Assembly: GCA_026874595.1 (NCBI GenBank)
Contig: CM049312.1
Span: 27,149,956 to 27,213,955 of the forward strand
Direction of reading: 5' to 3'
Source of the DNA: Sipunculus nudus
Taxonomy: Eukaryota; Annelida; Sipuncula; Golfingiida; Sipunculidae
Length of the DNA stretch: 64,000 nt
Below are positions 1-56,512 of this stretch, piece after piece. Below the pieces are notes generated by a model. It did no database searches. It had not been told where the DNA came from and saw only the letters and a list, made by a program, of their open reading frames with translations. Numbering within the stretch: the first letter of the stretch is position 1; each line of letters begins with the position of its first letter. Both the position numbers and the translations under genes were made by a program.

Positions 1-720
1 TGCCTGACAAAACTCAGATTTTACTAAGCTGACGGTCAGACGTGCTTCACTGAGTCTTTCGAAGAGGTCGCGAAGAATATGCAGATGTTTCTCCCAGGTG
101 TCGCTGTACATGATGAGGTCATCACTATATGCGTCGCAGCCCTGAATGTCCTTGACAACCATATGAATGCGGACACTTCTTTCGCTCGATCTGTCAGCGG
201 AACTTGCCAGAATCCTTTTGACAAGTCAAACTTGGAGACATATCTGGAGCTACCGACTCTATCAATACAATCATCGATCCTCGGAATCGGGAACGTGTCA
301 GTCCTGGTGACAGAGTTCAGTTTTCGATAATCTGTGCACATACGGTAACTTCCATCAGGTTTTAGCACAAGAATACATGGTGTACTTCAGTTACTGTTAC
401 TAGTTTCAATAAAATCTTTGTCCAGCAATTATTGAATCTCATCCTGTAGATACTTTTGCCTCTCTGGATTCAGTCTATATGGATGTTGCTTGACTGCGCT
501 TGCCTCGCCAACATCGACGTCATGGCACAACATATTAGTTCGCGTTGGAATGTCACGAAACAAATGTTCATAATTCCGTAGAAGGTTCTTGAGATCTTGT
601 TGTTGTTGTGCGGTAAGGTGTGACAGTTTGGCATCCAGGTTGTTAAGCACGTCTGAGTTTTTTAATGGTACTGTACCACACTGAATGTGTACATCACACT
701 TACAATCAGCATCTACTTTA
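1..720 (-). pseudogene. Reverse transcriptase remnant, copy 1 (internal deletion)
   Basis: Downstream of integrase, 650-429 carries the RT N-terminal linker (MLNNLDAKLSHLTAQQQQ). 368-36 carries the fingers and first palm motif: VLKPDGSYRMCTDYRKLN, then KFDLSKGFWQVPL with the first catalytic Asp. The frame ends with SAF and is joined directly to sequence that, in another frame, encodes the YxDD box (here YSDDL, near 135-120). The normal segment between these, which holds the PFG motif, is absent, so the join loses about 25 residues and shifts the frame. The window edge cuts the thumb. RT is placed after integrase here. Confidence 0.88.
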
Positions 721-782
721 ATTGGTCAGGGTCAGTTTTTACACAATTAACAGCAGTAACATTTTATACAACATCTGATGTG

Positions 783-1628
783 TTATTTCTGTCATAATAT
801 GGTTTCAACATGTTAACATGGCACAGTTGTTTCTTCTTACGCCGACCTGGTGTCTTTAGTATATAATTCAAATTACTGACTTTCTTGTCAACAATGTAAG
901 GACCAAAATACCTAGCTTGCAGAGGTCTGCCAGGGATGGGAAATAAGGCAAGGATCTTTTCACCAGGCTCAAACGTCCTACTTACAGTGTGTTTGTCATA
1001 CTTTGTTTTCGTTTTACTTTGTGCAGATTTTAGATTTGACTTTGCAAACTCACAAGCATTGTGTAGTTTAGTGCGAAAATCTGACTGAGAAGGAACTTAA
1101 ACTCAAGGACTCTTGAAAGGATTCTCTGACAGCAAACAGCAATAGGTGGATTCCTTCATCCAAGTCTTTCTGTGTGTCATAGCAGTAAGTCTTGATCATG
1201 TTTTTTAATGTCTGGTGAAAACGCTCGAGGGTGCCCTGACTTTCAGGATGGTATGGCGAAGAGCTGTACTGTTTTATACCTAGCTCAAGCATAACTTGTT
1301 GGAGTGAGCCAGACATAAAATTAGACCCTTGGTCAGACTGGACGGATTTTGGCAATCCAAAAGTTGTAAAAAAGCTTGGTCAGAGCTTTGACAGCACTTT
1401 TGGCATTAATTTTGCGCAATGGCCAGACAAAGGAGCCTCATGTACCATGCATAGAACTTCACTGCGAAAGCTTTTGGGCATTACTATTTGATGTTTGAAG
1501 GCCCACTCATCATCAGCGCATACATCAGGTGGTCGACATTTACGCATAAGCACTCCATTTTTGACATAGAAACAAACTGGGTTCTGTGACAGTTCATCTT
1601 TAGATAATGCCCTGGGAAATAAAAACAT
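783..1628 (-). pseudogene. Integrase remnant, copy 1 (lacks first catalytic region)
   Basis: The N-terminal zinc-binding part (1628-1380) shows the two histidines in MVHEAPLSGH. The sequence then jumps straight to the second half of the catalytic core (1355-1068), which has SDQGSNF with the second catalytic Asp and YHPESQGTLERFH with the catalytic Glu. The Cys pair of the zinc motif and the first catalytic Asp are missing: comparison with copy 2 shows a deletion of about 280 bp, from the point equivalent to 12358 to about 12636. A C-terminal domain ending in HVNMLKPYYDRN-like sequence follows at about 1060-783, with frame breaks. Not functional. Confidence 0.87.
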
Positions 1629-2093
1629 GAAATATCAGGGTCCTTATGCTGTTCCCCGAGAAGTTCTGACCTTGAGAATGATGCATTGACGGCTTTTCTG
1701 TCACTATTGGTACAAGCTGTACTTTATCACACGCAACATCATTGCCTAGTAGCAACTGAATTTCCTTAAAGGGTAAAGTAGTTATTATGCCCACAGTAAT
1801 ATTCCCAGAAATCAAATCTGACTTTAAATGGATACTGTGAAGCGGAACTGAAGTGTGCCTGTCTGAAAACACACCATTAACAAGTGCATGTGCATAGTAA
1901 AAGACCTATTAGAAAATGGCAAAGTGTTTGCTAACATGAGAGTTTGGCCTGAACCAGTGTCCCTTAAAATTCTAATAGGGGTAGAATCTAAAAAATCACT
2001 TGAAAGTGATATAAAACCATCATGTATGAATGGCTCAAATAACTCCATTTCAGAGTCAGGAGAGGAATCTACTACCTCAACCTCATTAAACAA
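1600..2093 (-). pseudogene. Aspartic protease remnant, copy 1
   Basis: The segment reads ILRDTGSGQTLML, with the D-T-G active-site triad at 1961-1953. Copy 2 has the same stretch with ILGDTG, so the R before D is a change in this copy. The downstream part (1872-1600) carries TSVPLHSIHLKSDLISGNIT and QLLLGNDVA, the second half of a retropepsin fold, in another frame. A frameshift therefore separates the halves. It lies between gag and integrase, as expected for the protease that processes Gag-Pol. Confidence 0.82.
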
Positions 2094-2279
2094 AGAACTG
2101 ACATTGACAGTGTCAACTCTGTTTCAGAGTCATCAAAGGAATCTATATCCTTTTTATCATCAAACTCCTCATGGAAGTCAACAGAGGGATTTTCCTCAGC
2201 AGAAACAAACTTTTGTTTGTCATAAGAGTACCTGGCCTCATTTGAATTACTCTCGCAAAGAGTCATAAAATGACTTAGC

Positions 2280-3687
2280 CTCATTTAGAGAACACTCCTC
2301 GCAGGAGTCTTGAAAGGACCTAGCCTTATTTAAGTCCTTGCAGGAATCAACTGAGGTTTTTACCCCGCGATCTACGGATTCTTCTTTGAATTCAGACGTC
2401 ATTTGGGCCTCCGTAGCATCAAATTCTTTATTAGAGTTAACAAAGGAGTTGTACTCCTTATTTACATGAAAGTGCCTGTCTGTTGTACTATGCCATCCAT
2501 AGATTTTGAAACAAACCCAGAAGGTTTCCTATTTGGTTTATTCGCAAGTTTCCAGCAGTCAGATATTAGATGACCTTCCTTCTCACAGTAATGACAGAAT
2601 TTCTTTGAAAATGACTTGCCTTGGTTAAATTCAGGTACAGTGAACGTGGACTGAGGTGTAGCAATGGACTTTGCTGAACTATCAGGACTACTAGTACTAG
2701 GTGACTGCGCTTTAAACTTCTTTTGACCATACTGATTTACATTCTTGTTTGTGAATGACTGGTTTGATTTTTAGCAAAGGATATTTTGTATTTTAATGAA
2801 TAATCATCAGCAAATTGAACAGCAATGTTAAGTGTATCAGGACTTTTCTCATCCAGAAAAATGATAACATCTGCGTTAATGCAGCGCTTAAATTCTTTAA
2901 GCAAAAACAACTGGCGCAACTTGTCATAATCTTTTATTACAATTTTGGAACTACACCAGCGATCAAACAGCTAATCTTTTGTCCTATCAAATTCGATATA
3001 GGTCTGTTCTTTGCGCTTTTCCGAATTTCTGAAGCCTCCGGAACTAACTCATAACATTTCAGGATTAACCGTTTATCCTGGTCATGGTCAGCAGCGGCTT
3101 CTACTGAAAGCTCTGTATAAATTTCTATGGCCTTGTCAGTCATTACACTTTGTAATAGCATTGTTCAATTTTCCTTAGGTCATTTTAAATTTTCAGCTAC
3201 CTTCTCAAAGTGTAAGAAATATTTATCAACCCCTTTTTTCTTGAAAAGGTGGGACAAGTCTAATGTGTTTCGTAACATCAAAACTGTGAATCGGGGCAGC
3301 ATGTAAATCATGTTCTTATTTAAGTTTTTCTAACTCCGGTCGTGTTAACTCAATTTCTTTTTCTTTTTCCTAGTCGTCTTTCTCTTTCTTACCGTTCATG
3401 TTCTTCCATTTCTAACTGTTTTAATGCTAGTTCATGTTGCATTTCTAACTTTTTTAAATTCCAACTGCATAGCAAGGCTGTCATTTCTTGATATCCCACT
3501 TCACTCTGTTCAATTAAACCTAGCTAGATCTTGCATGATTTTAGCAATGATATAAGGCTTTCTCAAAGCTTTTTTTCACACCTAGCCCTAAGTGTTGTCC
3601 CAAACGCAACAACTGGCCTTTTGTCAACTGTTCAAGTTGATTAGGGTCGGGATCTTCAACAAATGTCTCAGGTTTAAAATCTGCCAT
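2280..3687 (-). pseudogene. Decayed gag of LTR retrotransposon copy 1
   Basis: The likely gag start is the ATG at 3687 on the minus strand, which opens with MADFKPETFVEDP; the equivalent ATG in copy 2 is at 10019. The frame then breaks repeatedly. Capsid-like pieces lie at 3161-2937 (containing KCYELVPEASEIRK) and 2919-2737, matching the copy 2 segment at 10556-10864. A CCHC zinc knuckle lies near 2553-2597 and reads CHYCEKEGHLISDC, with C-x2-C-x4-H-x4-C spacing. Family gag proteins package the RNA into particles. The many stops show that this one is dead. Confidence 0.85.
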
Positions 3688-3830
3688 GTTAAGATGTTAA
3701 AACAACAACAGAAAACCACAGAGATAAATCTTGTAAACAATGTAATGTAAACAATGTGTAATCTTGTAAACAATGTATTGTAAACCATGTGTATAGGTCA
3801 AGGCCTAAAAAATTGTCAAAACTATTAAGC

Positions 3831-3846
3831 TCCCAGTCGAGCCCCA
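3831..3846 (-). promoter_or_regulatory. Primer-binding site, tRNA-Pro-like, copy 1
   Basis: Just inside the 5' LTR the minus strand reads TGGGGCTCGACTGGGA. This is close to the sequence complementary to the 3' end of tRNA-Pro that is used by many retroelements. Position and similarity support the call; the primer assignment is inferred. Confidence 0.7.
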
Positions 3847-3853
3847 TATTTTA

Positions 3854-4727
3854 TGCTACGGAACCTAATATCAACAGATCACTTGTCATGACGAGCATAC
3901 ATTTTTTATGGAGATAGAGAAAAAATCAGTTTCTGTAACACTAGGCAGCGTGAAATGCCTAGGGGAATAAATAAAGAAGTCTGTGTTTTTTTTTTTAATA
4001 ATTATAATTTATTCTTAAAACAATCCTAACTTTACAATACACTATATCAATACTATTACACAGTATAACAACAGTTCAACAGTAAATCAATACAAGTATA
4101 TAAATTGAGTGTACAGTACCTGGATACCACCACTGTCACAGCGACAAAAAGTCCCTTAAAGCAAATAACCCAGATGAATATTTCCCATAAATCTTCTCAG
4201 AGAATAACAGTCCAGTTCAATCACAAAATCAGTTTGTTTTAATCCAAAAGTGAAGTTCTGATAGTGATCCCAAAGGCAAACTGAAGACTATATAAAATCC
4301 GTTACAAATTCGAAGAAAAGCTATAACTGCCGCAACTATCGGAAAAGGTCCACAAACTGACTTACACTCTTCTGTGTCCGCTGGAATATATCTCTCATCT
4401 CTCTTTGCTCTAAAACACAGCCCCTATTTATAACTTTTTACCTCAAGCCGAGAACTTCCTATTTCCCGAACAATCCAAAGAACCCAACAAATACACACGT
4501 TACAGGAAACATCGCGAACAAATAACGCTGTGTTTCTACATATCAGGGTTCACACGGGGGCCGGCGCGGCTCGGCGAGGCGAGAAAGCCCCAGACTAGCA
4601 TGGCCGCTGTGTTTGCACGTCAGACCCCACGCGTGGGCCGGGCTATGCCGCCATAGCAACGGACAATGCTAGCGCTGCACATACACATGTAAGGCTGCTG
4701 CATACAATAAAAGCGACATCTGTAACA
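3854..4727 (-). repeat. 5' LTR of retrotransposon copy 1
   Basis: On the minus strand the LTR opens with TGTTACAGATG at 4727 and closes near CCGTAGCA at 3854, a mutated version of the GTAACA end seen in the other copy. It aligns along most of its length with the LTR at 14202-14919, including a TATA-like stretch before 'ggggctgtgtt', an AATAAA polyadenylation signal and a U5 with 'cacgctgcctagtgtt'. At 874 bp it is longer than the 718-bp LTR of copy 2, partly because of a GC-rich insert at 4536-4605 with a 9-bp direct repeat on each side. Confidence 0.88.
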
Positions 4728-6190
4728 ACACAATTAAGTGGGCTTGGATAGGTGTTTTTATTGGACAAAAGTGGTTTGATAGGCACAGAGGAAATTTCAG
4801 TAGGTCGGTCAGCTGAAAATGCCCTCATAAGGAATAACACGTGTACCGTAAGAAGAAAGCCAAACCTTACCCGAATAAAGACGGCGCAAGTCATTGCATT
4901 CATCCCTCTTAATATACTTATTTCAGAGAGAGAGGGAGAGAGAGAGGGAGAGAGAGAGAGAGAGAGGATGCGTGATGTGAGAAGAATAGCCAGGCTTACA
5001 TGTTCACTATAAGCCCATCTGAAGAGAAGGGAACATTGAATATAAACACTTGACTTGGTGCAAGGCTGAGAATTACACACCAGGTGACCCGGGCTCCATA
5101 CTCAGCCTTGAATATGTTCTTACGAAATATCGTAGCGGTCCTTCTGATTTATCAGAAGGAAAGAATAAAAGAGTAATTAAGAATAAGATGCGGCTTAAAC
5201 TATGTTCACTCTACCTATATATCCTTTATATATCAGTTTCCATATATGTGGAGTCTCCTGTTTATGTTATATATGATATAACAGCATTTTATCATGAAGA
5301 GAAGAGCAGAAAACCATCACTGACACAGCCATGTTGCTGAGGCATGAACTCTGGTCACCCATGACCTGACCTGTGACCTGACCTCTGGTGTACCAGAGTA
5401 ATTTATTGCTAATAAATCTATTAAAAAATCTTATTTCATGAATAATACTTATGAGTAAATGATAATATATGGTTACAATAAGTCCTTTATAAGTTAATGG
5501 CTATATCTTGTAAGGTTTTAACAAATTTGCCTATGGAAGTTATGGAAACAATATTTACTATAATTTATTTGGGACAATAATCAGAGGACAACTTTTCTCA
5601 TATCAATAAGGTCAAGGACAGGGTCCTGTGACATAAGATAAACATGACAGCATGGCAGGCTAAAAAAAACCAACAGGAGTTGAAATCTTAACAATTTCCT
5701 TATAAGGGCACTTCTACATAATTTATTTTTACTCCAGAACAGTTTATTAGCCATTATTGGTAAGAAATTTGCTTAACGCCTCCATTTTCTCTGTTTATTT
5801 TGCAAAATCCCAATATACCCTTGCTACGCTTTTCCATAAGAGAATTCCCATAACTGAAATCTCATTTCAGTTATGAACCCATAACAATATAAACACAAGA
5901 GTTTACCGAGATCCTGTGTATTCTCCAAAAACAATGAACCAGCATGGCAATTCAAAGATCTCTCTCTCTCCCTCTCTCTTTCTGTCTCTCTCTCTCATTT
6001 ATATATGTATGTATATAGGCCCACCACAGTATGTAGACTATAGTATAACAATTTTTTATAAGGTCATTAAATGATAATCAATGCACGGTCCAAATATTAT
6101 TGTCTGTAAGATACATGAACTAAGTAATCTGCTTCTACTTTAGTCAGACACTTCCAGTTAAAAAAAAATAACCGGTTTTTGAACTTTGCT
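4728..6190. other. Intergenic stretch with microsatellites
   Basis: I see no gene here. A (GA)n tract lies at 4926-4967 and a (CT)n-rich tract at 5961-5997. Around 5350-5390 there are several TGACCT half-site-like repeats. Short open frames (for example 4643-5080 minus, which crosses the GA tract) have no recognisable domain and are not supported as genes. Confidence 0.6.
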
Positions 6191-6191
6191 T

Positions 6192-6197
6192 TTTATT
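6192..6197 (-). promoter_or_regulatory. Polyadenylation signal AATAAA of the first C1q gene
   Basis: The minus strand carries AATAAA about 150 bases after the stop codon at 6348. It is the first canonical signal downstream in that direction. Confidence 0.55.
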
Positions 6198-6347
6198 CAC
6201 CATAAAACACTGACCCTTAGAGTCTGAAAGCTTGAATATATGAAAGAGTTGTAACAAGGTGTCTTAATTAACCTTTAACGATTGATCTTACGTACAACAT
6301 ACTTAAAGTGATTGGTTGATGTGGATATAACAGCTGAAAATGGTGCT

Positions 6348-7132
6348 TCAATAGGTGTTGACCAGAAAGCCGGAAAAGGAATTTCCATTATTATCAATGC
6401 TTGAATTTGGGCAGACCTTGACCAACACCTTGTCTCCTTTGGATAAAGGGAGCGCGGTGCTAATGTGCAGAGAGGAATGCTTCGCACGGGTGTATCCGGG
6501 TATAACCAACTTGCCGTTCTTAATCAGCCACAAACACCCATATTTCTCTGTGCCTGACATTGAGTTTACATTGAAAGCGTACAAGCCGGACACAGGAGCC
6601 GTAAATGCGTGGGTTCGATGGTCAAATCCGTTCCCGTTGTTGAAAACAACCTGGTTGTATGGCATGGCGATCGCATATGTCGTTGTTATAATGTGATGGG
6701 AGGCACCCGTGTGTTGACTCAGGAATGATATATGAGGGACATCTAAAACAATAAATTGAAATTCAATTAGAAATACTTCATTCGAGACCGGCAAAATTTA
6801 ACCTGGTTATTTTAAAATATATAAACATGATACGGTATAAGAAATATTTGTCCGATATTGATTTAATGCAAAACGTAATGAAGAATTAGGTTTTCAACAA
6901 AAATAATACAAGATCTAAACTTGTCCGTGGACTTCATTATAAGATTCCTCATCTTTAACAAACTTACTTTTCAAGGCGTTACCTCCCCTTGTTAGCTTCT
7001 TAACGGTCATCTGAAAAAATGAGGGAAAACATTTCTGAAAGCCGTTATCATATAAATGACCCATACAATCACAATTTGTTATCCCCTCGCAAAGAAATTG
7101 CAGGAGAGGATAAAGTTATTAATAATGATTGC

Positions 7133-7183
<51 letters not shown>

Positions 7184-7500
7184 CTTATTTATTAGCAAGA
7201 GGAAGTTAAATTACAAAATCATTCTTACTGAAACTTAATTGGAACGATGGCTTTATAATAATTTCCGTCTTTATCCAAAAACATTTACACTTGGGAGCGC
7301 AACATATGCATGATTTAAAACCAAAGCCATACTAGTAGCAGTACTACTACTACTACTAATGATATGTAAAATGTCAGATGTCAGATATATTTTACCTGCA
7401 GATCAAGGAGAAGGTGTTCCAGGCGTTCAACCCTGCTTGACAAGGGGTATGGTGCTGCAAAAGCAGCTAGAAGTACAAGGAAAACCACAGTAGGCACCAT
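6348..7500 (-). CDS. Secreted C1q domain-containing protein, three exons, 180 aa
   Basis: Exon 1 (7500-7396) starts MVPTVVFLVLLAAFAAPYPL, a typical signal peptide, then a short helix (VERLEHLLLDLQ), and ends in phase 0 at CAG|gtaaa. Exon 2 (7010-6968, 43 nt) follows ttttttcag, encodes MTVKKLTRGGNALK and ends in phase 1 at AAAA|gtaagt. Exon 3 (6742-6348) follows ttgttttag and holds the C1q fold, with FNNGNGF, THAFTAPVSGLYAFNV, the central SGTEKYGCLWLIKNG and the ending SGFLVNTY. The three exons add to 543 nt, exactly 181 codons with the stop, which strongly supports the joins. No collagen region is present, so this is a globular-head-only form. Such proteins are secreted ligand-binding molecules linked to molluscan innate immunity; that role is known for the family, not shown here. 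Confidence 0.9.
7135..7179. repeat. (AT)n microsatellite in intron 1 of the first C1q gene
   Basis: An uninterrupted AT dinucleotide run of about 44 bases lies inside the intron between exons 1 and 2. Confidence 0.95.
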
Positions 7501-7561
7501 GTTGCTGAACTGATCACTGATCACCATAGACTGATCACTGTGGATGACACATACATTATAC

Positions 7562-7572
7562 CAGGATATATA
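7562..7572 (-). promoter_or_regulatory. TATA-like box of the first C1q gene
   Basis: The minus strand reads ctatatatcc about 65 bases before the ATG, a plausible TATA position for a short 5' UTR. Between the two, GATCA is repeated three times. Confidence 0.45.
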
Positions 7573-9120
7573 GGTATGGATATTTTGGCATCCTGACAGT
7601 TGTAAGGCTATATGTTAAACAGATTTGCGTCCGGTGTATGTCACATGACAATATGATCTTTAGATACTATTTTTTGTTGCTTTATGTTCAAGTAGTTTCC
7701 AACAATATATCCTATATGTGTAACCAGGTGGGAAAATTTCAGTTTACCTCCCCCCACCCCTAAATATCGCAATAAATTGCACCCCCAATATCGATTATTA
7801 TTTTTTAATCGATTTCAGATTATATCCGGGGGTAGTCTGAACCTAATTTCAAATTCCCGTAGCACTCAGGTTAACCCTTCACTGATTTAACTTAATAAAA
7901 ATTCTTATGCTTTTTTAATGATATTTGTTTTAATAAGTCGCGTAAAAGCTACCAGATTGAACAGATGGAAACAATCTGTGAATAATAAAATTGTCGTTAA
8001 ATATTAACTATATTGTAAATTATATTTATATTGACTCATTAACTTCATAAAAGCGCATGGCACGTTACATATAGACACGCGATATACATAGAATGAAATT
8101 TAATTGGGAAACCAAAAAGAAAAATAAATTAATTAACAAGTAATAGAAAGGATAACCTGAAAGGGGAGGGTGATTAAGGCATGGTCACCGCAGTTGGGAT
8201 ATATTGTATAATAATATTATGGTTCTACTCAATTACTGCTTCTCGGTATGCCGTGGAGGGGGGGGGGGGGTCATGTTCGTGACTGAGGAGACGTCAGGCC
8301 ATGATATAATACTGATTTTCACCTCATGCACATTGATAGATATAAACATCAGAAAAAATTTCTTTTGCACTCCCTTGTGACCCAACACCTCTCGGTTGAG
8401 ATACACATGTGTGTTGCGAAGGTTGGGAGCGGGCTGGGATCGTTACCACACCATCAAATCATACAAATATTCACTTTTTTAAATTTTCACACCTCTTTCC
8501 TTTCTTTCTTGGGATGTAAAGTGGATACAGCTTCCACTCCGAGAAAGCAATCTGATTTGTGGTCAAAGTGACAGGTCTAAGAGCTGCGAGAAGGACAAGA
8601 AATGTAGATGAGATCGTTGATTTTAAATAATCTCCTCATACACCTTAATTGATCACGCGGCCGAATCTATAAAGACATTGTGGAATTCATTAGTAATTTT
8701 GAAATTTTCCTGTTCTCAGGCCTCTTGTTGACTTTGGTTTAACTAAAAAAAGAGATCTATTGTTCTCCTTCCAAAGATGCTATAACGCATATACCCTCAG
8801 AGCGATACAGGCCACAGAGCATAAAAACAAGCCTCTCGAAACATCTATTACTTAAATGAATCCTCACAGATATCATGAAGACTTCAGTATTTATTAACTG
8901 GATTGGTGTTGTTTAAAATTGTATGATAAAATATGTTTAAGATATATTACTGTTTTATTATTTTTATTATTATTAGTAGTAGTGGTACTAGTTGTAGTAG
9001 TATCATTATTCCTATTTTAGGCCACAAAATACTTTTTCAGTCATAAAAACAGTATTGGATTTCATACGATTTTGTTCCGGGAATTCTTTATTAAGTTTTT
9101 TAGTGACTTTTACATATAAT
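7573..9120. other. Intergenic stretch without recognised gene
   Basis: AT-rich sequence with a 12-base G run near 8261-8272 and trinucleotide-like 'tagtagtagt' stretches near 8975-9005. The short open frame at 8326-8571 has no recognisable domain. I see no gene. Confidence 0.55.
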
Positions 9121-9891
9121 TGTTTATTATGCGCAGGATTTTACATACCTTAACACGTACTTGACTTACTGATTCGTGCTATGCGCAAGCCCTGTGCGTT
9201 GCCATGGGAACCGCACTTATTGAACTCTGACTTGCTCGCAGAGTGTATAGACAGCGTGTTCGGTGCAGTCAAGAAGGTTCCAGAATGGAAGTTTCTGGAC
9301 TTCGGGTGAAGAAGCTATACATAGGAACTGTGTTTAGAGCCAGAAAGAAGAAAAATACCACCGGGCACGAAAGGGTGCGGCTTCCTCGTCACTCTTGGGA
9401 CCTTCTCTAATAATTGCATGGTTATAAATATTCTGTGGAATGTAAACAGACTTAATGCAGATTTTATACAGATTGTCTCAGTTTGCCTTTGGGATTTTAC
9501 CTGAACTTCACTTTTGAATTACAACAGATTGTCTCCGAGATTTAATTTGATTATTCACCGGGAAGATTTACTTGAACTGTGCACGTGGATTAGTTGTTGG
9601 ACTGTGACAGTTGTGGTATCAAGAAATCAAAGCCTAGGATCCGGACTCTGGTGATGTACATTTTTAATATTGTTATGTCTTAAATACTGTGTAATTGTAT
9701 AGATTAAGTGTATTGTAATGCTAGAATTTTTCTAAGAATAAATTATCATTATTTGTTAACAAGATAACACTGATTTATTTTATTCATTCCCCTAGACATT
9801 GCACGCTGCCTATTGTTTTGGAATCTGATTTTTAAAACAAAATTTATGCTTGTAACAATTACGTGATCTGTTATTATTAGGTTCCGTAACA
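9121..9891 (+). repeat. 5' LTR of retrotransposon copy 2
   Basis: It ends with CCGTAACA at 9891 and carries landmarks shared with the other LTRs: 'actgattcgtgc', 'catgggaac', a TATA-like 'gctatacatagg', 'caaagcctaggatccgg', AATAAA near 9739 and 'cacgctgcct'. The left boundary is set where similarity to other LTR starts fades. Its middle (about 9210-9650) is far closer to the solo LTR at 55780-56512 than to its own partner at 14202. Confidence 0.82.
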
Positions 9892-9897
9892 TAAAAT

Positions 9898-9914
9898 TGT
9901 AGGCTTGTCCGGGA
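9898..9914 (+). promoter_or_regulatory. Primer-binding site, decayed tRNA-Pro type, copy 2
   Basis: TGTAGGCTTGTCCGGGA lies six bases after the LTR and resembles the tRNA-Pro primer-binding sequence with a few changes. Copy 1 has a better match at the same place. Confidence 0.65.
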
Positions 9915-10018
9915 GGCTTAATATTTTTGAAAATGTAAAAGGCCTTGACCTAGACACATTGTTTACAATATATTGTTTACAAAACAGTGGTTCTTTGTTA
10001 TTGTTCTAACATCTTAAC

Positions 10019-11350
10019 ATGGCAGAAAACCTTAGGCATTTGTTTAAGATCCAGACCCTGATCGACTTGAACATTTGACAAAAGATCAGTTGTTGCGCTT
10101 TGAGAACCACTTTGGGCTTAGTATGATAAAAGCTTTCAGAAAGCCTGATATCATTGCTAAAATCATTCAAGATCTAGTTAGCATAGGTTTAAATGAAAGG
10201 AGTGAAGTGGAAACTGAAAAAAATGACAGCCTTGCTAGCAGTCAGAATTAACACAAAAGTTAAAACAGTTAGAATTAGAAAAAGAAAAAACAAAGAGAGG
10301 GAAGAACATGAAAGGTTAGTAAGAGAAAGATTGGAAAAAGATAAAAATGAGCTAAAACGACTGGAGTGAGAAAGACTTAAATTAGAACATGGTCTACATG
10401 CTGCCTTAACTCACAGTTTTGATGTTACTAAACACATGAGACTTGTCCCACCATTTCAAGAAAAAAAGGTAGATAAATATGTCTGACACTGGTAGCTGAA
10501 AATTTAAAATGGCCTCAGGAAAAATTTGGACTAGGCTATTCCAAAATGTATTGACTTGCAAGGCCAGAGAAATTTATACAGTGCTTTCAGAAGAAGCCGA
10601 TGCGATTATGACCAGGTTATTAAACGGTTAATCCTTAAAGGTTATGAGTTAGTTCCAGAGGATTACCGCCAGAAATTCAAAAATTGGGTAAAGCGCAAAA
10701 ATCAGACCTATGTAGAATTTGCTAGGACTACAAAGCAGTTGTTTGATCGCTGGTGTAGTTCTTTAAATGTAATGAAAGATTATGACAATTTGCGCCAGTT
10801 TATTTTGCTTGAAGAATGTATGCGCTGCATTAACACAGATTTTAAAACTTTTCCCGTTGAATAGTCCTGAAACACTTGACATTGCTGCTCAATTAGCTGA
10901 TGATCCTTATCACATCAAAAGACCTTTACTATCCAAATCAAACCAGTTATTCACAAACAAGAATATAAATCAGTATGGTCAAAAGAAGTTTAAGGCATAG
11001 TTACCCAGTACTAGTAGTCCTGATAGTAAAAAAAGTCCATTGCTACACCTCAATCCACGTCCACTATGTCTCAGTCAAATAAAGACCAGTCATTTTCAAA
11101 GAAAATTTGTAATTACTGCAAAAAGGAAGGTCATCTAATATCTGACTGCTGGAAACTAACAAATAAACCGAAGAGCAAATCTTCTGGTTTTATTTCACAA
11201 CCTATGCATAGCATAGTACACGAGCCTACAACTCCTTTATTGACTCTGAAAAAAGAGTTTGATGCTAAGGAGGCCATCTTGCCGTCTGACTCCAAAGAAG
11301 AACCCATTGCTTGCGGGGAAAAACCTCATTTGATTCCTGTAAGGAACTAA
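10019..11350 (+). pseudogene. Decayed gag of LTR retrotransposon copy 2
   Basis: The ATG at 10019 opens MAENLRHLF and the frame soon ends. The best capsid-like block is 10556-10864, with LILKGYELVPEDYRQKFKNW and LFDRWCSSLN. A zinc knuckle at 11108-11149 reads CNYCKKEGHLISDC. After it comes a Ser/Lys-rich tail (KPKSKSSGF) and a linker repeating short Cys-Glu segments. The matching blocks in copy 1 show the same order. Several frameshifts and stops make it non-coding today. Confidence 0.86.
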
Positions 11351-11578
11351 AGAAGGCTAGGTCCTATCAAGGCTCCTGCGAGGAGTACCCTCTAAATAAG
11401 GCTAAGTACTTATATGACTCTTGCGAGAGTATTTCAAATGAGGCAGGTCCTCTTATGACAAACAGTAGATTGTTTCTGCTAAGGATAATTCCTCTGTTGA
11501 CTCCCATGAGAAGTTTCATTGTATTTAGGATGTAGATTCCTTTTGTGACTCTGAAAAAGTTTGAGTTATTTGAGCCAT

Positions 11579-11950
11579 TCATACATGATGGTCTCGTATC
11601 ACTTTCACGTGACTTACAGATTCTATTCTTACAGAGCCTATTAGAATTTTGGGAGACACTGGTTCAGGTCAAACTCTGATGTTAGCAAACACTTTGCCAT
11701 TTCTAATAAGTTTTTTACTGGTGTACATGCACTTTTTAATGGTGTGTTTTTCGACAAGCACATTTCAGTTCCGCTTCACAGTGTAAATTTAAAGACAGAT
11801 CTGATTTCTGGGAATATTACTGTTTGCATAGGAACTTCTCTACCCTTTAAGGGAATTCAGTTGCTACTAGGCAATGATGTTGCAGGTGGAAAAGTACAGC
11901 CTGTACCAATAGTGATCGAAAAACCGTCACTTGATCAGGGCACTAATCCT
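11579..11950 (+). pseudogene. Aspartic protease remnant, copy 2
   Basis: The active site reads ILGDTGSGQTLMLANTLPF, with Asp-Thr-Gly at 11655-11663. After a frame change the second half continues at 11744 (HISVPLHSVNLKTDLISGN, then GIQLLLGNDVAGG). Copy 1 has the same two halves. Retropepsins of this type cut Gag-Pol; the frame break rules out activity here. Confidence 0.84.
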
Positions 11951-12129
11951 GAAAATCAGAAAATTCCTGGTTTGCATCCTTCATGTGCTGTAACTAGATC
12001 TATGCCCAAGAAAAACACACATGAGGAGAATGGTCCAGATAATAACACTCTGGGAGTCACTAGTGACTCATCTAACGACTCGCCCGTACAGAATGCAGCC
12101 TTTTCAAGGTCAAAACGTATCACGGACAT

Positions 12130-13240
12130 CATAGGGACCCTGATATTTCATGTTTGTTTCCCAGGACAGCTTCTAAAGATGAATTGTTACAAAACCCAGT
12201 TTGTTTCTATGTTAAAAATGGAGTGCTTACGCGTGAATAGCGACCACCTGATGTCTGCGCTGATGATTAGTGGGCCATCAAACATCAAATAGTAGTGCCA
12301 AAAAGCTATCGCAATGACATTCTAAGCATGGAACATGAGGCTCCTTTGTCTGGCCATTTATGTATAAAAAAACGTATTAGAAAGTTAGTACACACTTCTA
12401 TTGGACTTATCTCAGGACAGATGTTGTACAATACTGTAAATCATGCCACAAATGCCAGATGGTAGGCAAGCCCAGTCAGAATTCTCCTCAAGCCCCACTT
12501 AGACCCATTTTGTTTTTCCATTTAGTAGGATTATTGTTTAATTTTGTGGACCACTGCCTAAAACAAAATCTGGACATAAATACTTGCTGACAATTATGTA
12601 CGCTTCTACCAGGTTCCCTGAGGCAATGTCCTTGCGCAATTGTACTGCCAAAAAGTGTTGTTAAGGCTCTGACCAGGTTTTTTACAACTTTTGGATTACC
12701 AAAACCAAATCACAGAAAGACTGGGATGAAGGAATCCACCTATTGCTGTTTGCCGTCAGAGAATCATTTCAAATGTCCTCGGGTTTCAGTCCCTTTGAAC
12801 TAGTTTACGGACACGAAGTTCGGGGTCCATTAAAACTGCTTAAAGAGAACCTCCTGTGTGGAAATCCTTATGCTCTTAGTTTATTGCAGTATATATCAGA
12901 CTTTCGCACTAAATTACACAATGCTTCTGAGATTGCAAAGTCTAATCTAAAATCTGCACAAAGTAAAAAGAAAACAAAGTATGACAAGCACACTGTAAGT
13001 AGGACATTTGAGCCAGGTGGAAAGGTCCTTGCCTTATACCCATCCCGGGCAGACCTATGCAAGCTAGGTATTTTGGTCCTTACATTGTTCACAAGAACGT
13101 CAGTGATTTAAATTACATACTTTTAACACCAGATAGGCGTGAGAAAAAGCAACTGTGCCATGTTAACATGTTGAAACCATATTATGACAGAAATAGCACA
13201 TCAGATGTTGTACATAATGTAACTCCTATTAATTGTGTAC
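12130..13240 (+). pseudogene. Integrase remnant, copy 2 (lacks second half of catalytic core)
   Basis: About 12130-12480 holds the zinc-binding domain, including the HEAPLSGH histidines and, near 12425-12465, a C-x2-C pair in 'YCKSCHKCQM'. The first catalytic Asp region follows near 12540 (FVDHCL). At about 12708 the sequence jumps from 'FGLPKP' to sequence equivalent to 'KDWDEGIHLLLFAVRESFQ', so the second Asp and the Glu are lost. From 12743 the end of the core continues (SSGFSPFELVYGHEVRGPL), and 13057-13240 holds the C-terminal barrel (ARYFGPYIV, then HVNMLKPYYDRN). Non-functional. Confidence 0.86.
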
Positions 13241-14121
13241 TGACCCAGTTAAAGCCGCATCCATATGGTTGTCAAGGACATTCAGGGCTGCGACGCATAT
13301 ATTGATGACCTCGTCGTGTACAGCGACACCTAGGAGAAACATCTGCAAATTCTTTGCGACCTCATCGAAAAACACGTGCCTCAGTAAAGCACGTCTGACC
13401 ATCAACATCAACAAATCTGAGTTTTGCTATGCACAAGTAACATTTTTGGGACATATTGTAGGGTATATAAAACCTGTTGATGCTAAAATAAGTGCTATTT
13501 CTGCATGTCGTAGACCAGAAAACAAAAAGCAAATAATGCATTTTCTTGGTATGGTTTTATACTACAGGAAGTTTTGTCCACATATTTTCTGCTATAGCTG
13601 AACCTTTGACCATTTTTTTAAAGAAGAAACAAAAGTTTGTATGGAATGTTCAGTGTGAAAATGCATTTCAGAATTTGAAAGCAATTTTGCAAAGTTCACC
13701 GGTTTTGGTAGCTCCAGACTTTTCTGTACCTTTTAAGTAAGCTGTAGATGCTAGTGATACTGCTGCTGGTGTTGTGTTGTTACAAGAAGGCAATGATGGC
13801 ATAAATCATCCAATTTGTTACTTTTCATGAAAGTTTAATGCAAATCAGACAAACTACTCCACTATTGAAAAAAGAATGTTTGTCTTTGATTTTGGCATTG
13901 CAAATTATGTTACTTCATCAGTCAAGTCTATCATTGTTTTTAGTGATCACAATCCTCTCACGGTCATGAACAAGTTAAAGTGTAAAAATCAAAGATTGAT
14001 GAGATGGAGTTTGTTTATACAGGATTATTATCTTGAAATCAGACATATTAAAAGGAAAGCAAATGTACTTGCGGATTGCCTATCGAGATGTTTATGTAAT
14101 GCTGTTAATAAGATAGTTTGA
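13241..14121 (+). pseudogene. Reverse transcriptase-RNase H remnant, copy 2
   Basis: Immediately after the integrase tail, the RT N-terminal half is missing. Sequence resumes near 13252 with the palm box AYIDDLVVYSDT (about 13297-13332), followed by a stop. After frame changes come the RT thumb (SEFCYAQVTFLGHIVG), then 'KKKQKFVWNVQCENAFQNLK', then RNase H from 13741 with AVDASDTAAGVVLLQ and, at 13876-14121, DHNPLTVMNKLKCKNQRLM and LEIRHIKRKANVLADCL. The RNase H order and residues are of Ty3/Gypsy type. Dead copy. Confidence 0.9.
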
Positions 14122-14190
14122 AGTGCTGTAAAAATTTAGTGATTGTGATCACAAAAAGAAAGTTTTTAGAGAAAACTTTCTTTTTTTTAC

Positions 14191-14201
14191 AGGAGGGAGA
14201 C
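14191..14201 (+). promoter_or_regulatory. Polypurine tract of LTR retrotransposon copy 2
   Basis: AGGAGGGAGAC lies directly before the 3' LTR start TGTTACAGG, the expected place for plus-strand priming. Confidence 0.8.
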
Positions 14202-14919
14202 TGTTACAGGTGTCACTTTTATTGTGCGGGTGTTACAGGTGTCTGTTGACATTCTGATTCGTGCAGTGCAGGCATAGTTCGTTCGTATGGGAACCTCGCC
14301 TGTTGGGCGTTGGCTCGTGTGTGGGGTCTGAAGCGTCGAGACAGAGCGTTCTTTGTTCTAGATGTTTTGGGTCTTTTCATGTGCTTGTGTTAGGTTCTTT
14401 GGAATTTTCCATTTTTTTAATTTTCGGGTGAGAAGCTATAAATTAGGGGCTGTGTTTCAAGCCAGCAGAAAGGAATATAAAAGCGAGCAATTAGAGTGTT
14501 ACTTTCTCGTCAGGGCCCTTACCGGTATTTGCAGTGGTGTCAGAAATTTAACGGACTTAATACAGATTTAATATGGACTGTCTCCGGTTTGCCTTTGGAT
14601 TATTACTATTTACGTGGATTATTTATGTTAAAGGACTCTTGTTGAGCTGAGACAGTGGTGGTATCCAGAAATCAAAGCCTAGATCCGGACACTCTGGTGC
14701 TGTACATTTGATTATTATACTGTGTAACTGTATTGATTTAGTGTATTGTAATGTTTGGATTGTTTTAAGAATAAATTATATTTATTTGTTGAAAAAATAC
14801 CCCACTGACTTCTTTATTCATTCCCCCAGACATTTCACGCCACCTGGTGTTGCGAAATCAGATTTTATTTATCTCCGTTAAAAATTTGTGCTCGTCAGGA
14901 TTTCCTGATTTCCGTAACA
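14202..14919 (+). repeat. 3' LTR of retrotransposon copy 2
   Basis: It starts TGTTACAGGTG and ends CCGTAACA, so the ends are inverted TGTTAC/GTAACA. A TATA box (TATAAA, 14437-14442) and a polyadenylation signal (AATAAA, 14770-14775) are present. It shares its first 60 bases and its U5 with copy 1's LTR, but its U3 differs strongly from the 5' LTR of this element. Confidence 0.9.
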
Positions 14920-17924: not shown

Positions 17925-19305
17925 CTTCTCTGTTGGGGCAGGGGCTCCAATGTTAAGTCAGTTAGCCGTTTGTTGGGTAAGGTGGTCCTATTTTGGGACA
18001 GGTGCTACAGTTATGCGGCAGGTGGTCCTATGTTGGGACAGGTGGTCCTATTTTATTTCAGGTGGCCCTGTGTTAGATCAGGTAGTCCTATGAAGGGACA
18101 GGTGCTACTAATTCTGGACAGGTAGTCCTATGTTTGGACCAGTGCTACTATTTGGGACAGATGGTCCTATGTTGGGACATGCGGTCCTGTTTTATTTCAG
18201 GTGGACCTGTGTTAGGTCAGGTAGTCCTATGTTGGGACAGGTGCTATTATTTTGGGACAGATGGTCCTATGTTGAGACAGCTGGTCCTATGTTTGGACAG
18301 GTGGTCCTATTTTATTTCAGGTGGTCCTGTGTTAGGTAAGGTAGACCTATGTTGGGACAGGTGCTACTATTTTGGAACAGGTGCTACTATTTGGGACAGA
18401 TGGTCCAATGTTTGGACAGGTGGTCCTTTTTTTCGGACAGGTGCTACTATTTTGGGACAGGTAGTCCTATGTTGGGACAGGTGCTATTATTTTGGGACAG
18501 ATGGTCCTATGTTGAGACAGCTGGTCCTATGTTTGGACAGGTGGTCCTATTTTATTTCAGGTGGTCCTGTGTTAGGTCAGGTAGACCTATGTTGGGACAG
18601 GTGCTACTATTTTGGAACAGGTGCTACTATTTGGGACAGATGGTCCAATGTTTGGACAGGTGGTCCTTTTTTTCGGACAGGTGCTACTATTTTGGGACAG
18701 GTAGTCCTATGTTGGGACAGGTGTTACTTTTTTGAACAGGTGGTCCTATGTTGGGACAGGTGGTCCTATTTTATTTCAGGTGGTCCTGTGTTAGGTCAGG
18801 TAGTCCTATGTTGGAACAGGTGCTACTATTTGGGACAGATGGTCCTATGTTGAGACAGCTGGTCCTATGTCGGGACAGGTGGTCATATTTTATTTCAGGT
18901 GGTCCTGTGTTAGGTCAGGTAGTCCTTTGTTGGGACAGGTGCTACTTTTGGGACAGATGGTCCTATGTTTGGACAGGTGGTCCTATTTTGGGACAGGTGC
19001 TACTATTTTGGGACAGGTAGCCATTGTTGGGACAGGTGCTACTTTTTTGGACAGGTGGTCCTATGTCGGGACAGGTGGTCCTATTTTATATCAGGTGGTC
19101 CTGTGTTAGGTCAGGTAGTCCTATGTTGGGACAGGTGCTACTATTTAGGACAGATTGTCCTATGATTTTTTCAGGTGGTTCTTAGTTAGGTCATGTGCTC
19201 CTCTATTGCGACAGGTCATCCAATGTTAGTTCAGGTGGCCTAATGTCGGACAGGTACATCCTAAGCTGGGACAGGTGGTCCTGAGTTAGGTATGGTAGTC
19301 TAATT
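17925..19305 (+). repeat. Minisatellite, 20-bp unit, about 70 copies, with 240-bp higher-order repeat
   Basis: The unit is close to GTGGTCCTATGTTGGGACAG, with variants such as GTGCTACTATTTTGGGACAG and GTGGTCCTATTTTATTTCAG. In 18301-18720 the variants recur in fixed order every 240 bases (12 units): 18301-18480 and 18541-18720 are nearly identical. Because 20 is not a multiple of three, all three plus frames stay open for long distances. The resulting 128-239 aa translations are repeat artefacts. Confidence 0.95.
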
Positions 19306-28310: not shown

Positions 28311-31073
28311 GGGGCTACATTAAACATTAAAAAAAATCATGAGAATATTTAAAGAGAAAATATTTTATAAGATTTTTTTATCATACGATATAAAATATTA
28401 CAAGTTTAAATAAATACAGGTGTAGATTGTACCATTTACTGTGAGAATAAATTAATCTTGCACTTGTAGTCAAGATGGCGTCTGTCAAGATGTGATTTTT
28501 GGCAATACTGCAAACTTGTGTGTGCATGTACTCAGGTATATGATGGTTTCATATTGAATCATATGCAGGGTAAAAGTTATCTCTCCTTGTTGGTAAATAA
28601 CAACAACAGTTAACTGAGACTTTCAATTTTATTAGGGAAAAGCTTTTAAATATTCCACTTATGACCTACTTTGAACTCGTGCGAGGGGCTACTTAGGACA
28701 TGTTCAAAGAAGCCCCAGCACTAATTTAGTATAATTCTTTTCAGTATATTATATGGAATACAGAGCTATAATCAATGCTTAACATCATGTTGCACACAGA
28801 AACTTATAATGAACAAAGGGAAAGTATTCTGGTTACAAAATACAAAAATAGGCCAACTTATCTTGATGAAAAAAGATCCACAATTAGGCCTAAATTCAGT
28901 GCGTATTCAGAATATTAGAACAAGGTCCACGTTTTTGAATGAGAAGTTATGAAGTGTCTCTTCTTATTAAATTCTCATTTTTACCTCCCGTGTTTCGAGA
29001 TATATCAACACTGATTTTAACATCATAAATTGGACACCTGATGCAATGTCTTGGAAACGTCTCCGTGCACCTGAGATTAAACAGGTGCGCCTTTGGACCA
29101 TTTACGCCATCTGTCGGCCGTATATTGAACAAATACTTTGATTTGGATAGTGATAGATACCTAGAAAAAAAGAAACGTTACATAACACACAGACACAAAC
29201 ACAATCACAGAAAAAATGATAGAGAGAGAGATATATATAAAAGAATCAAAACTTTAGTATTATACCCGAAGATGGAGGGGGTATAGTTTAAATAATAACT
29301 GTGGCACTTTTGCTAAAGAGACTAAGATTTGGACATAAAATGGGGAAAATGTTAATCGCCTTTCATTTGTAATTTAAAATATAATTGATTATAAAATAAT
29401 ATAAGTTAAGACGCGCTTTCACCAGAGGTCCCCCCCCCCCGTTCAAAACAGTCTGTCTCAGTCAGGAATTGTGGGACGGCCGAGACTAATTGTTTCAACT
29501 GTAAAACATAAAGAGCAAAATTCAAGAAAGAAAAAAACTTCCATTCATATTGCACACGCACATACTCACCGAATCTTACTTATTCTGTAAGATTCTAACC
29601 AAGGGAACACTTATATTCTTGTAATTTGCCTTGAAATAATTTTAATCCAACTTATTTCAATTGACTTCATCTGCTAATTCCCAACATTTTATGTCAACGC
29701 CATGGGCGGGTGCATTGTGGGAGAGAGATTTCTAAATACACAATCGCTAACCAGCAGAGTCGTACGCTTGTGGTTATTGCTGGTCTCTTCCACAGGTTCG
29801 CCAGGACTAGGGGTTGAGGGGCGCCTCTGTATGTCCTTGTAAGAGACTAAAATGCGTATCGACATTTTGGGAATTTCCTAAAAGCGGATCAGCACGCGAA
29901 ATTAACGCACGGATCCACAACTTTCTTCAGGTTCCTAATCTTTATAAACGCGGACCAGCGCGGACAACCAATAAAAAATTGTTTTCCAAGTTCTTAGTGT
30001 TATTTCTTTGTCTAATCATTTTTGTGGACGTTTTATCTTAGCGACAACTGGAGTACGTTATAAGTTTATTTTTCATAACTCGTGGCAACAAATAGCCTGT
30101 ATGACCAGGATATAAACATAATTTTACATGGGTCCGTAATATCAGACCAATGGCTGTGCGTCGTTCCGAACTATATCTTGCTAACTGGATAATGAATATA
30201 ATATTAAATACCCTTAACTTGATATTATTATATAGCATCTTATATGTAACTACATTATTCAGCATTATAATCAATATGTGCGAATCCAACGCTTCGTGGA
30301 CCAATGCCGGCTGCCAGATAATTATTCTTCCCTTTAAATGATGCATTGTCAGATATATATTCCTGCTGCGATTATCATATGTTTGAGGATATTTACCCGT
30401 TTTATATTAATTGATGAAATGACACAAAATATTTTATTTATTTTTTTTTTTAATTTTGACCATCTGTCATTGAGGATTAACACATTTACATGCGAATTAG
30501 AATTAATAAGGGATTCCTATAAATCAACCGTTAACATGGGATTAAACAGAGCAACAGCTGCTAATGGCCTTCAAGTTCTGTAAGCTGTTACTTTAACCCA
30601 AGCAACTGTACGATTTGATTTCGTTCTTTCTAACAACAGCAATAACGTGGGAAAAATATTCCAATTTAAGTTAACCAAATAAGCCTCTTTGTTTATCTTA
30701 GCACAAATAAGCCTGTCTCCCACGGATTTTACGTGGCCTGTGGCGTATAATAGGGAATCAACGCCCTGGCATAATAAGCACGTGTACCGGAAGTGCAAGT
30801 TGATTTTATACGTAACTCCCGCATGCCGATGTATACGGAGAAAACGCTGGGAAACGGTATTAAACGTATATTATTCTATTTTCAAGCTTGGTTATGTCGC
30901 CCACTTCGCACTCCTAATTTTCACAAACCAACCGTCTGTTGCCGAAGTCGTAAATACTTTTTTGCTACTTAGCTCTGTATTGTTAGGAGAATATCATGCA
31001 GTCTCCATTTTTAAATAATGAAAACTCATATGAGCATGTATAAGCAAAAGTTTTCATTTTTACCATTTCTCAT
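28311..31073 (+). repeat. Left arm of large inverted repeat
   Basis: About 2.76 kb that reappears reverse-complemented at 33008-35771. Paired segments translate identically or nearly so (for example 29041-29286 with 34789-35034, and 30571-30798 with 33277-33504). Differences are scattered: base substitutions, a C run of 10 here against a longer G run there, and a 9-bp insertion near 35055 in the other arm. Short open frames inside have no recognised domain and change freely between arms. I see no gene in the arm. Confidence 0.95.
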
Positions 31074-55194: not shown

Positions 55195-55779
55195 TTACGT
55201 GGGACAAAGGTAACGATAAAAGGGAAAAGAAATTTATTATGTTGATCTGATTACTTCAACAATTTAATGAATAGCTCATAAGCTTTTACGCTAACCCTTT
55301 GCACATTTTCTATAAAATCCGGATATACCCATTTGCGTTTGTTTTACTTAAGACAAAGCAGCGAACCAAGTCTGAAGTTATTATTTTTCTTGCCACGGAC
55401 TACCATCAATTGACAACTAAAACATCAGTTTTCGTCATGTCCTTTGAGCTTCAATTATTACAAGGATTTTATCTTTAATTTCCAATTTCTAAAGTTGTGG
55501 ATCACTGCAGTGACCATTAAGATCCTAAATAAGTTGAAATTAAATATCATTACAATCATTCTTTGGCTACACTGAAACGAAATCTATTTTGGCAAGGGTT
55601 ACAACTGCCATTTATGAAATACATACATGGATGTTTAAAAGAGAAATGAGTGTAAAGAGGTCAGGGAAACGGACTAGGATATCAGCTGAAAATGTCATCT
55701 ATACATTGGCACCATCTGTTGCTTGTACATGGGGGGGGGGGGGGGGGGGGCGTACTACAGATGGTACCACTGTATAGAC
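54866..55779. other. Intergenic stretch with microsatellites
   Basis: (CT)n at 55045-55085, (TA)n at 55158-55191 and a G run of about 19 bases at 55732-55750. The short frame at 55589-55777 runs into the G tract and is not supported. Confidence 0.55.
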
Positions 55780-56512
55780 TGTCACATGTATCTGTTTATT
55801 ATGCATGGCTTGACATGTGCCGCACTTGTTGAACTCTGGCTTACCCACAGGGAGTACTAAAACGGCGTGTTCGTTGTGGTCTAAATTCTTCGAGTTTGTT
55901 CTTTGGAAATTTTGGACGGGAAGCTTCTGGACTTTGGGCTATTCATAGTGACTGTTCATAAAGCTATTCATAGGGGCTGTGTTTGGAGCCGGCAGAAAGG
56001 AAAATACCAGCAGGCACTAAAGGGTGCGACTTCTCGTCAGTCTTGGGACCTACTCCGATAATTGCATAGTTACAGATATTCTATGGACTCTATACAGACT
56101 TTATACAGATTTTATATAGATTGTCCTTAGTTTGCGTTTGAAATTTTACCTAGACTCCACTTCTGGGTAACAACAGATTGTCTTCGGGATTTAATTGGAC
56201 TTTTCACGTGGATTATTTGTGCTGAAAGACTCGATCTTGTTGGACTTTGACAGTTGTGGTATCCAGGAATCAAAGCCTAGGATCTGGAATCAGGTGATAT
56301 ATACTTTTAATATTGTTTAATATTGTCTTAAAACTCCGTAACTTTAATTTGATTTAGTGTATTGTAATGGATTGTTCTAAAAATAAATTATAATTATCTG
56401 TTAACCAAAAAAAAAAAAACACTAACTTCTTTATTCCCCTAGATATTTCACGCAGCCTAGTGTTGCGAAATCTAATTTTTTTTGTCTCCGTAACAAGGGT
56501 TTGTGCTCGTCA
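55780..56512 (+). repeat. Solo LTR of the same LTR retrotransposon family
   Basis: Starts TGTCACATGTATC and matches the LTRs at 9121-9891 and 14202-14919, with 'ttgttctttggaaattttgg', 'ggggctgtgtttggagccgg', 'gtggtatccaggaatcaaag', a polyadenylation signal near 56386 and 'gcagcctagtgttgcgaaat'. No internal retrotransposon sequence lies on either side, so it fits LTR-LTR recombination. The last 20-30 bases of the LTR are missing or altered. Confidence 0.88.

Follow-up and report, generated by a model that had tools for sequence, protein, structure and literature searches.

Retrotransposon superfamilies usually keep a fixed domain order, and the locus described here raised the question of whether an integrase encoded upstream of a Ty3/Gypsy-type reverse transcriptase (RT) was native to its family or had arisen where two elements were nested in, or abutted, one another. 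The order was found in two decayed LTR retrotransposon copies within a 64,000-nucleotide stretch of DNA (the window; G000:C7:27149956-27213955, from an assembly of 1.43 Gb in 153 contigs). Our analysis indicated that the order is native to the family, which is a mobile element of a known kind, uncommon in its gene order and very probably Gmr1-like.

Architecture of the two copies

The two copies were on opposite strands, copy 1 on the minus strand from 1 to ~4.6 kb and copy 2 on the plus strand at ~9138-14919 (Table 1). They were collinear, with a DNA identity of ~78-89%, and both were broken by stops and frameshifts. The original prediction, made from the sequence alone, described two opposite-strand copies with gag, protease, integrase and then RT, and this was confirmed by Pfam, run on stop-free pieces of both copies, with the protease recognized by motif. 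The span claimed for the pair, 1..14919, held for the two copies themselves; the 4.6-9.1 kb stretch between them was part of neither. Scanning the window against Rfam and for tRNAs gave no matches.

From 5' to 3', copy 1 matched a zinc knuckle (E-value 0.001), H2C2 (0.05, weak) and rve (8.6e-7), followed downstream by the integrase p58 C-terminal domain (9.9e-11) and RVT_1 (7.2e-11 and 2.7e-6). Its RNase H was out of sight because the RT ran off the start of the window. Copy 2 matched a SCAN-like capsid (4.8e-5, below cut-off) and a zinc knuckle (0.002) on the gag side, H2C2 (0.00045 and 5.4e-8) and p58_C (2.7e-10) in the integrase, and the end of RVT_1 (0.048, weak) and RNase H (5.5e-6 and 5.3e-10) in the 3' part; the RNase H that had been claimed for this copy corresponded to families PF17919 and PF17917. 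Compared with copy 1, copy 2 lacked ~170 bp of the integrase core and ~556 bp of the RT region (present in copy 1 at window 173-728), and its piece at 12665-13108 matched no Pfam family. The protease pieces of both copies were likewise without a Pfam match, and the protease was called because of its DTG and LLGND motifs. A YIDD site had been proposed for the RT; it was read by eye in copy 2, whereas copy 1 reads YSDD.

Table 1. Features of the two element copies and of a third LTR, in window coordinates
Feature	Position	Strand	Basis or remark
Copy 1 5' LTR	3854..4600, outer boundary approximate	-	Aligns with other LTRs; ends CCGTAGCA
Copy 1 primer-binding site	3830..3847	-	5 mismatches to tRNA-Pro
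Copy 1 gag, CCHC zinc knuckle, broken	2465..3696	-	Pfam; collinear with copy 2
Copy 1 protease region	1603..2123	-	Motifs DTGSG, LLLGND; no Pfam match
Copy 1 integrase: H2C2, rve, p58/GPY-F C-terminal domain	767..1634	-	Pfam
Copy 1 RT region, running off window	1..725	-	RVT_1
Copy 2 5' LTR	9138..9891, start approximate	+	LTR alignments
Copy 2 primer-binding site	9898..9915	+	4 mismatches to tRNA-Pro
Copy 2 gag, SCAN-like capsid piece (10655-10861) and zinc knuckle	10048..11347	+	PF02023 23.5 bits, below cut-off 27
Copy 2 protease region	11613..12289	+	Motifs DTGSG, LLLGND; no Pfam match
Copy 2 integrase (H2C2, damaged core, p58_C)	12271..13302	+	Pfam
Copy 2 RT remnant	13255..13598	+	RVT_1 end 0.048; alignment with copy 1
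Copy 2 RNase H	13537..14118	+	PF17919, PF17917
Copy 2 polypurine tract	14190..14201	+	Read from sequence
Copy 2 3' LTR (TGTTAC...GTAACA)	14202..14919	+	LTR alignments
Third LTR, without internal region	55751..56497, boundaries approximate	+	Alignment with other LTRs

Integrase upstream of RT in further copies

A 371-base integrase piece was searched against the genome, yielding 41 listed matches (best 40 of 1514 candidates scored), and twelve 9-kb stretches were taken around such matches. The window elements belong to a large family with many copies in the Sipunculus nudus genome. In all 12 further copies, integrase matches lay upstream of RT matches; one (L020) retained the N-terminal part of the RT only, and another (L017) was without gag, protease and H2C2. 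LTR pairs enclosed the integrase-first order in L011, L014, L016 and L019 (main BLAST segments 88, 95, 97 and 94%). In L013, a single open frame of 478 residues carried H2C2, rve and p58_C and continued into the N-terminal region of the RT, and the next open stretch in the same frame was RVT_1 (4.3e-33). A single 1,100-residue open frame in L051 carried SCAN, H2C2, rve and p58_C and ended at the RT motif SxWxSP.

The broken state of both window copies and the strong difference between the two LTRs of copy 2 (K2P 0.37) would fit an artefactual order, produced by one element lying within or against another. Against this, the two window copies and all 12 others had the identical order, and open frames of the integrase continued into the RT region. 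RT-first relatives and nesting, which the original prediction had named as its refutation, were sought in the 12 copies and not found. Because the order was shared by all 12 further copies examined and frames ran from the integrase to the start of the RT, nesting is ruled out as its cause for practical purposes, and we consider such an artefact exceedingly improbable; the integrase-first order is native to the family.

Three integrase-first lineages in one genome

An H2C2 profile search of the genome (best 150 of 6033 candidates scored) provided 30 loci which, with 8 chosen loci, were classified by best domain matches, using profiles from the window's lineage on pieces of ~3 kb. Integrase preceded RT or RNase H in 25 of these 38 loci (23 H2C2>IN>RT, one H2C2>IN>RH and one H2C2>IN>RT>RH). 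In seven the piece showed H2C2>IN and neither RT nor RNase H, and in six RT or RNase H came first (five RT>RH>H2C2>IN, one RH>H2C2>IN).

The integrase-first elements formed three diverged lineages: A, that of the window; B, comprising L051, L053 and L056, for which L051 and the adjoining L059 showed RT after integrase; and C, comprising L057 and the adjoining L061. Lineages B and C were far from lineage A. Trees were built from 17 integrase, 13 RT and 12 RNase H rows, all from elements of this genome, and in each a branch separated the integrase-first rows from the conventional rows (support 100/99 for integrase, 93/95 for RT, 100/98 for RNase H). These values should be read with the composition of the trees in mind: the minimum length excluded L020 from the integrase tree and L059 and L022 from the RT tree, leaving lineage B absent from the latter; two of the conventional rows (L041 and L055) are near copies of one another; and the tree program warned of long branches for lineage C, L054 and others. 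Three diverged lineages sharing one swapped order on one side of the branch would fit a single old rearrangement that has been lastingly successful.

A SCAN-type capsid accompanies the order

The capsid region matched the SCAN family (PF02023), for which the Pfam cut-off is 27 bits. Scores above it were obtained for L057 (42.5 bits), L056 (40.6), L051 (39.5), L053 (38.4), L058 (36.3) and L013 (27.9), corresponding to two of the eight pieces with a SCAN match in lineage A, all three capsid pieces in lineage B and the single piece in lineage C. Copy 2 of the window scored 23.5 bits, and a ninth piece of the window's lineage, from copy 1, had no SCAN match. None of 10 Gag and protease pieces from five conventional elements matched SCAN at E<=0.01. 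Genome-wide, all 150 scored SCAN matches (best 150 of 2198 candidates) passed the cut-off, with a top score of 57.1 bits. Among the 13 listed pairs of SCAN and H2C2 matches within 8 kb, 12 shared a strand and had SCAN 1575-1743 bp upstream of H2C2; the remaining pair had SCAN 4.6 kb downstream of an H2C2 match in a 1304-residue frame. Comparison of the SCAN profiles with the PDB gave nothing useful.

For the specialist, the most useful result is that the integrase-first order is linked to a SCAN-type capsid in three lineages. The accessible parts of earlier reports describe the SCAN domain as derived from a Gmr1-like Gag and the SCAN gene family as vertebrate specific (PMC4592553, PMC3424704), and the available portion of a frog study describes SCAN in over half of Gmr elements, and in Gmr elements only (PMC4131045). 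Like the SCAN of vertebrate zinc-finger proteins, the capsid region here matched PF02023 (at up to 42.5 bits in the scanned pieces); unlike it, SCAN here was in a transposon Gag, upstream of pol. The pairing of order and capsid bears on the origin of the SCAN domain in vertebrate zinc-finger genes. With three long-separated lineages all carrying SCAN in this invertebrate genome, and at least 150 copies above the cut-off, we give even chances to the whole Gmr1-like clade having had SCAN as its ancestral capsid. A SCAN match followed ~1.6-1.7 kb downstream by an integrase H2C2 could serve as a simple marker for genome scans.

Probable assignment to the Gmr1-like elements

Among solved structures, the RT was nearest to Ty3 (2.1e-45), and the best match of the integrase was foamy virus (8.7e-34), ahead of Ty3 (2.8e-30). 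Together with the Pfam families, the RT result agreed with the Ty3/Gypsy type originally proposed for RT and RNase H. Gmr1-like elements had also been named as the precedent, and the integrase-first order, Gypsy-type pol and SCAN-type capsid upheld this comparison. The order and a SCAN capsid occurred together in all three lineages and in none of the five conventional elements, and the RT was of Ty3 type; both copies are very probably dead members of a Gmr1-like Ty3/Gypsy family, the trees covering elements of this genome only. Speaking against this reading are the foamy virus match of the integrase, the SCAN scores below cut-off in most pieces of the window's own lineage, the fruitless comparison of SCAN with the PDB, the two near copies among the conventional elements and the absence of lineage B from the RT tree.

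A different Gypsy lineage could have moved its integrase independently, making the likeness to Gmr1 convergent, and the trees, which hold elements of this genome and no Gmr1 sequence among them, leave some room for such an event. However, all three lineages combined the order with the SCAN capsid, which was not found in the five conventional elements, and the published work cited above, as far as its available text goes, ties SCAN to Gmr1-like Gag; an independent rearrangement is therefore unlikely. Membership of Ty1/copia, which the gene order alone would favor, is ruled out by the match of the RT to Ty3 and by the Pfam assignments (an H2C2 and p58/GPY-F integrase, Gypsy-type RNase H families), and we give it almost no credence.

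In the accessible text of earlier work, Gmr1-like elements are members of Gypsy whose integrase precedes RT (PMC6238403, PMC2774666); crustacean members were reported as the first in protostomes (PMC3587641), and one was described in the annelid Lamellibrachia (PMC8220671). As far as these sources and the frog study (PMC4131045) describe them, the members of the clade (cod Gmr1, Ciona, frogs, crustacean GyRex4/5, annelid LGF3) have in common with the present family the integrase upstream of RT, a Gypsy-type pol and a SCAN-type Gag; here, three lineages occurred in one genome, compared with the clade by description. The five conventional Ty3/Gypsy elements found alongside it (L021, L041, L052, L054 and L055) shared the RT, RNase H, H2C2 and rve families with the present family and differed in that RT and RNase H preceded integrase and their Gag had no SCAN match. 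IMG/VR, queried with integrase, RT and RNase H, returned no external relative.

The available part of a mollusc survey lists six known Gypsy clades, without Gmr1, plus sixteen MolGy clades defined on RT/RNase H, and some MolGy clade could be integrase-first, unnoticed. Our search of the open literature on Gmr1 or SCAN in molluscs, with subscription papers and Repbase outside its scope, listed no mollusc Gmr1 element, and two hits that were checked proved unrelated. A mollusc host, if confirmed, would extend the Gmr1 range to a further phylum, for which the main mollusc survey does not list Gmr1.

LTRs, primer site and predicted replication

The LTRs of the family started with TGTTACAG and finished with CCGTAACA, and the primer site followed six bases further. 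A tRNA-Pro-type primer site had been predicted, and in L014 and L020 it was an exact match, being the complement of the 3' end of a host tRNA-Pro (L070) plus CCA; L016, L018 and L019 shared a common variant of it. Target duplications of 4 bp flanked L014 and L016, and none could be read at L011, L019 or window copy 2.

The divergence between paired LTRs (K2P) was 0.04-0.05 in L014, L016 and L019 and 0.11 in L011. In window copy 2 it reached 0.37, with an integrase end that was 91-92% identical to the other copies. Because its LTRs differ too much, copy 2 would not simply represent one insertion; an unaltered pair is unlikely, and the divergence most likely arose as copies recombined or underwent conversion with one another.

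Judged from its domain families, the family would copy itself through RNA, beginning with a transcript driven by the LTR. This would be followed by a particle whose capsid is of the SCAN type, tRNA-Pro would prime reverse transcription, and the element's own DDE integrase would integrate the copy with a 4-bp target duplication. The main difference from an ordinary Gypsy element is the placement of integrase between protease and RT in the polyprotein.

Three of the 12 copies (L011, L013 and L018) lay between tandem arrays that matched in period (41, 18 and 48 bp), against ~4% of the window outside the elements in arrays of period 10 or more; the numbers are small and the LTR ends eroded. A preference for minisatellites, or arrays growing into copies, are possible explanations. 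Elsewhere in the assembly, G000:C14:19081327-19319682 contained ~15 matches of a tRNA-Pro 3' end, many ~3.65 kb apart, and the one examined was a tRNA-Pro gene.

Other sequence in the window and assembly

Searches for the mollusc hemocyanin domain found no match in the genome, and the controls also matched nowhere. COX1-family matches numbered 11, ten on small contigs (G000 C60-C89, C123) and one short and chromosomal; nine of those on small contigs shared frames of 577-578 residues. The match on C123, read in part, was a bacterial cbb3-type oxidase, and no mitochondrial COX1 was identified among the 11, of which this one was read in part. Bacterial sequence was also present in the assembly, possibly from symbionts or contamination.

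Reading frames with a C1q domain were found at window 6351-6797 (minus strand) and 51527-51928 (plus strand), scoring 55.3 and 81.3 bits, and more C1q matches lay on this contig close beyond the window. The original prediction had spoken of a molluscan lineage that may be a new branch. Across the genome, 141 C1q matches were obtained among 150 scored (203 candidates), two of them in the window; they fit a mollusc host, which is plausible, and are no proof of one. The window also contained a minisatellite at 17971-19164 (20-bp unit, ~60 copies) and a near-perfect inverted repeat at 28329-31037 and 33038-35751, with arms of ~2.7 kb that were 97-100% complementary and a spacer of 2.0 kb.
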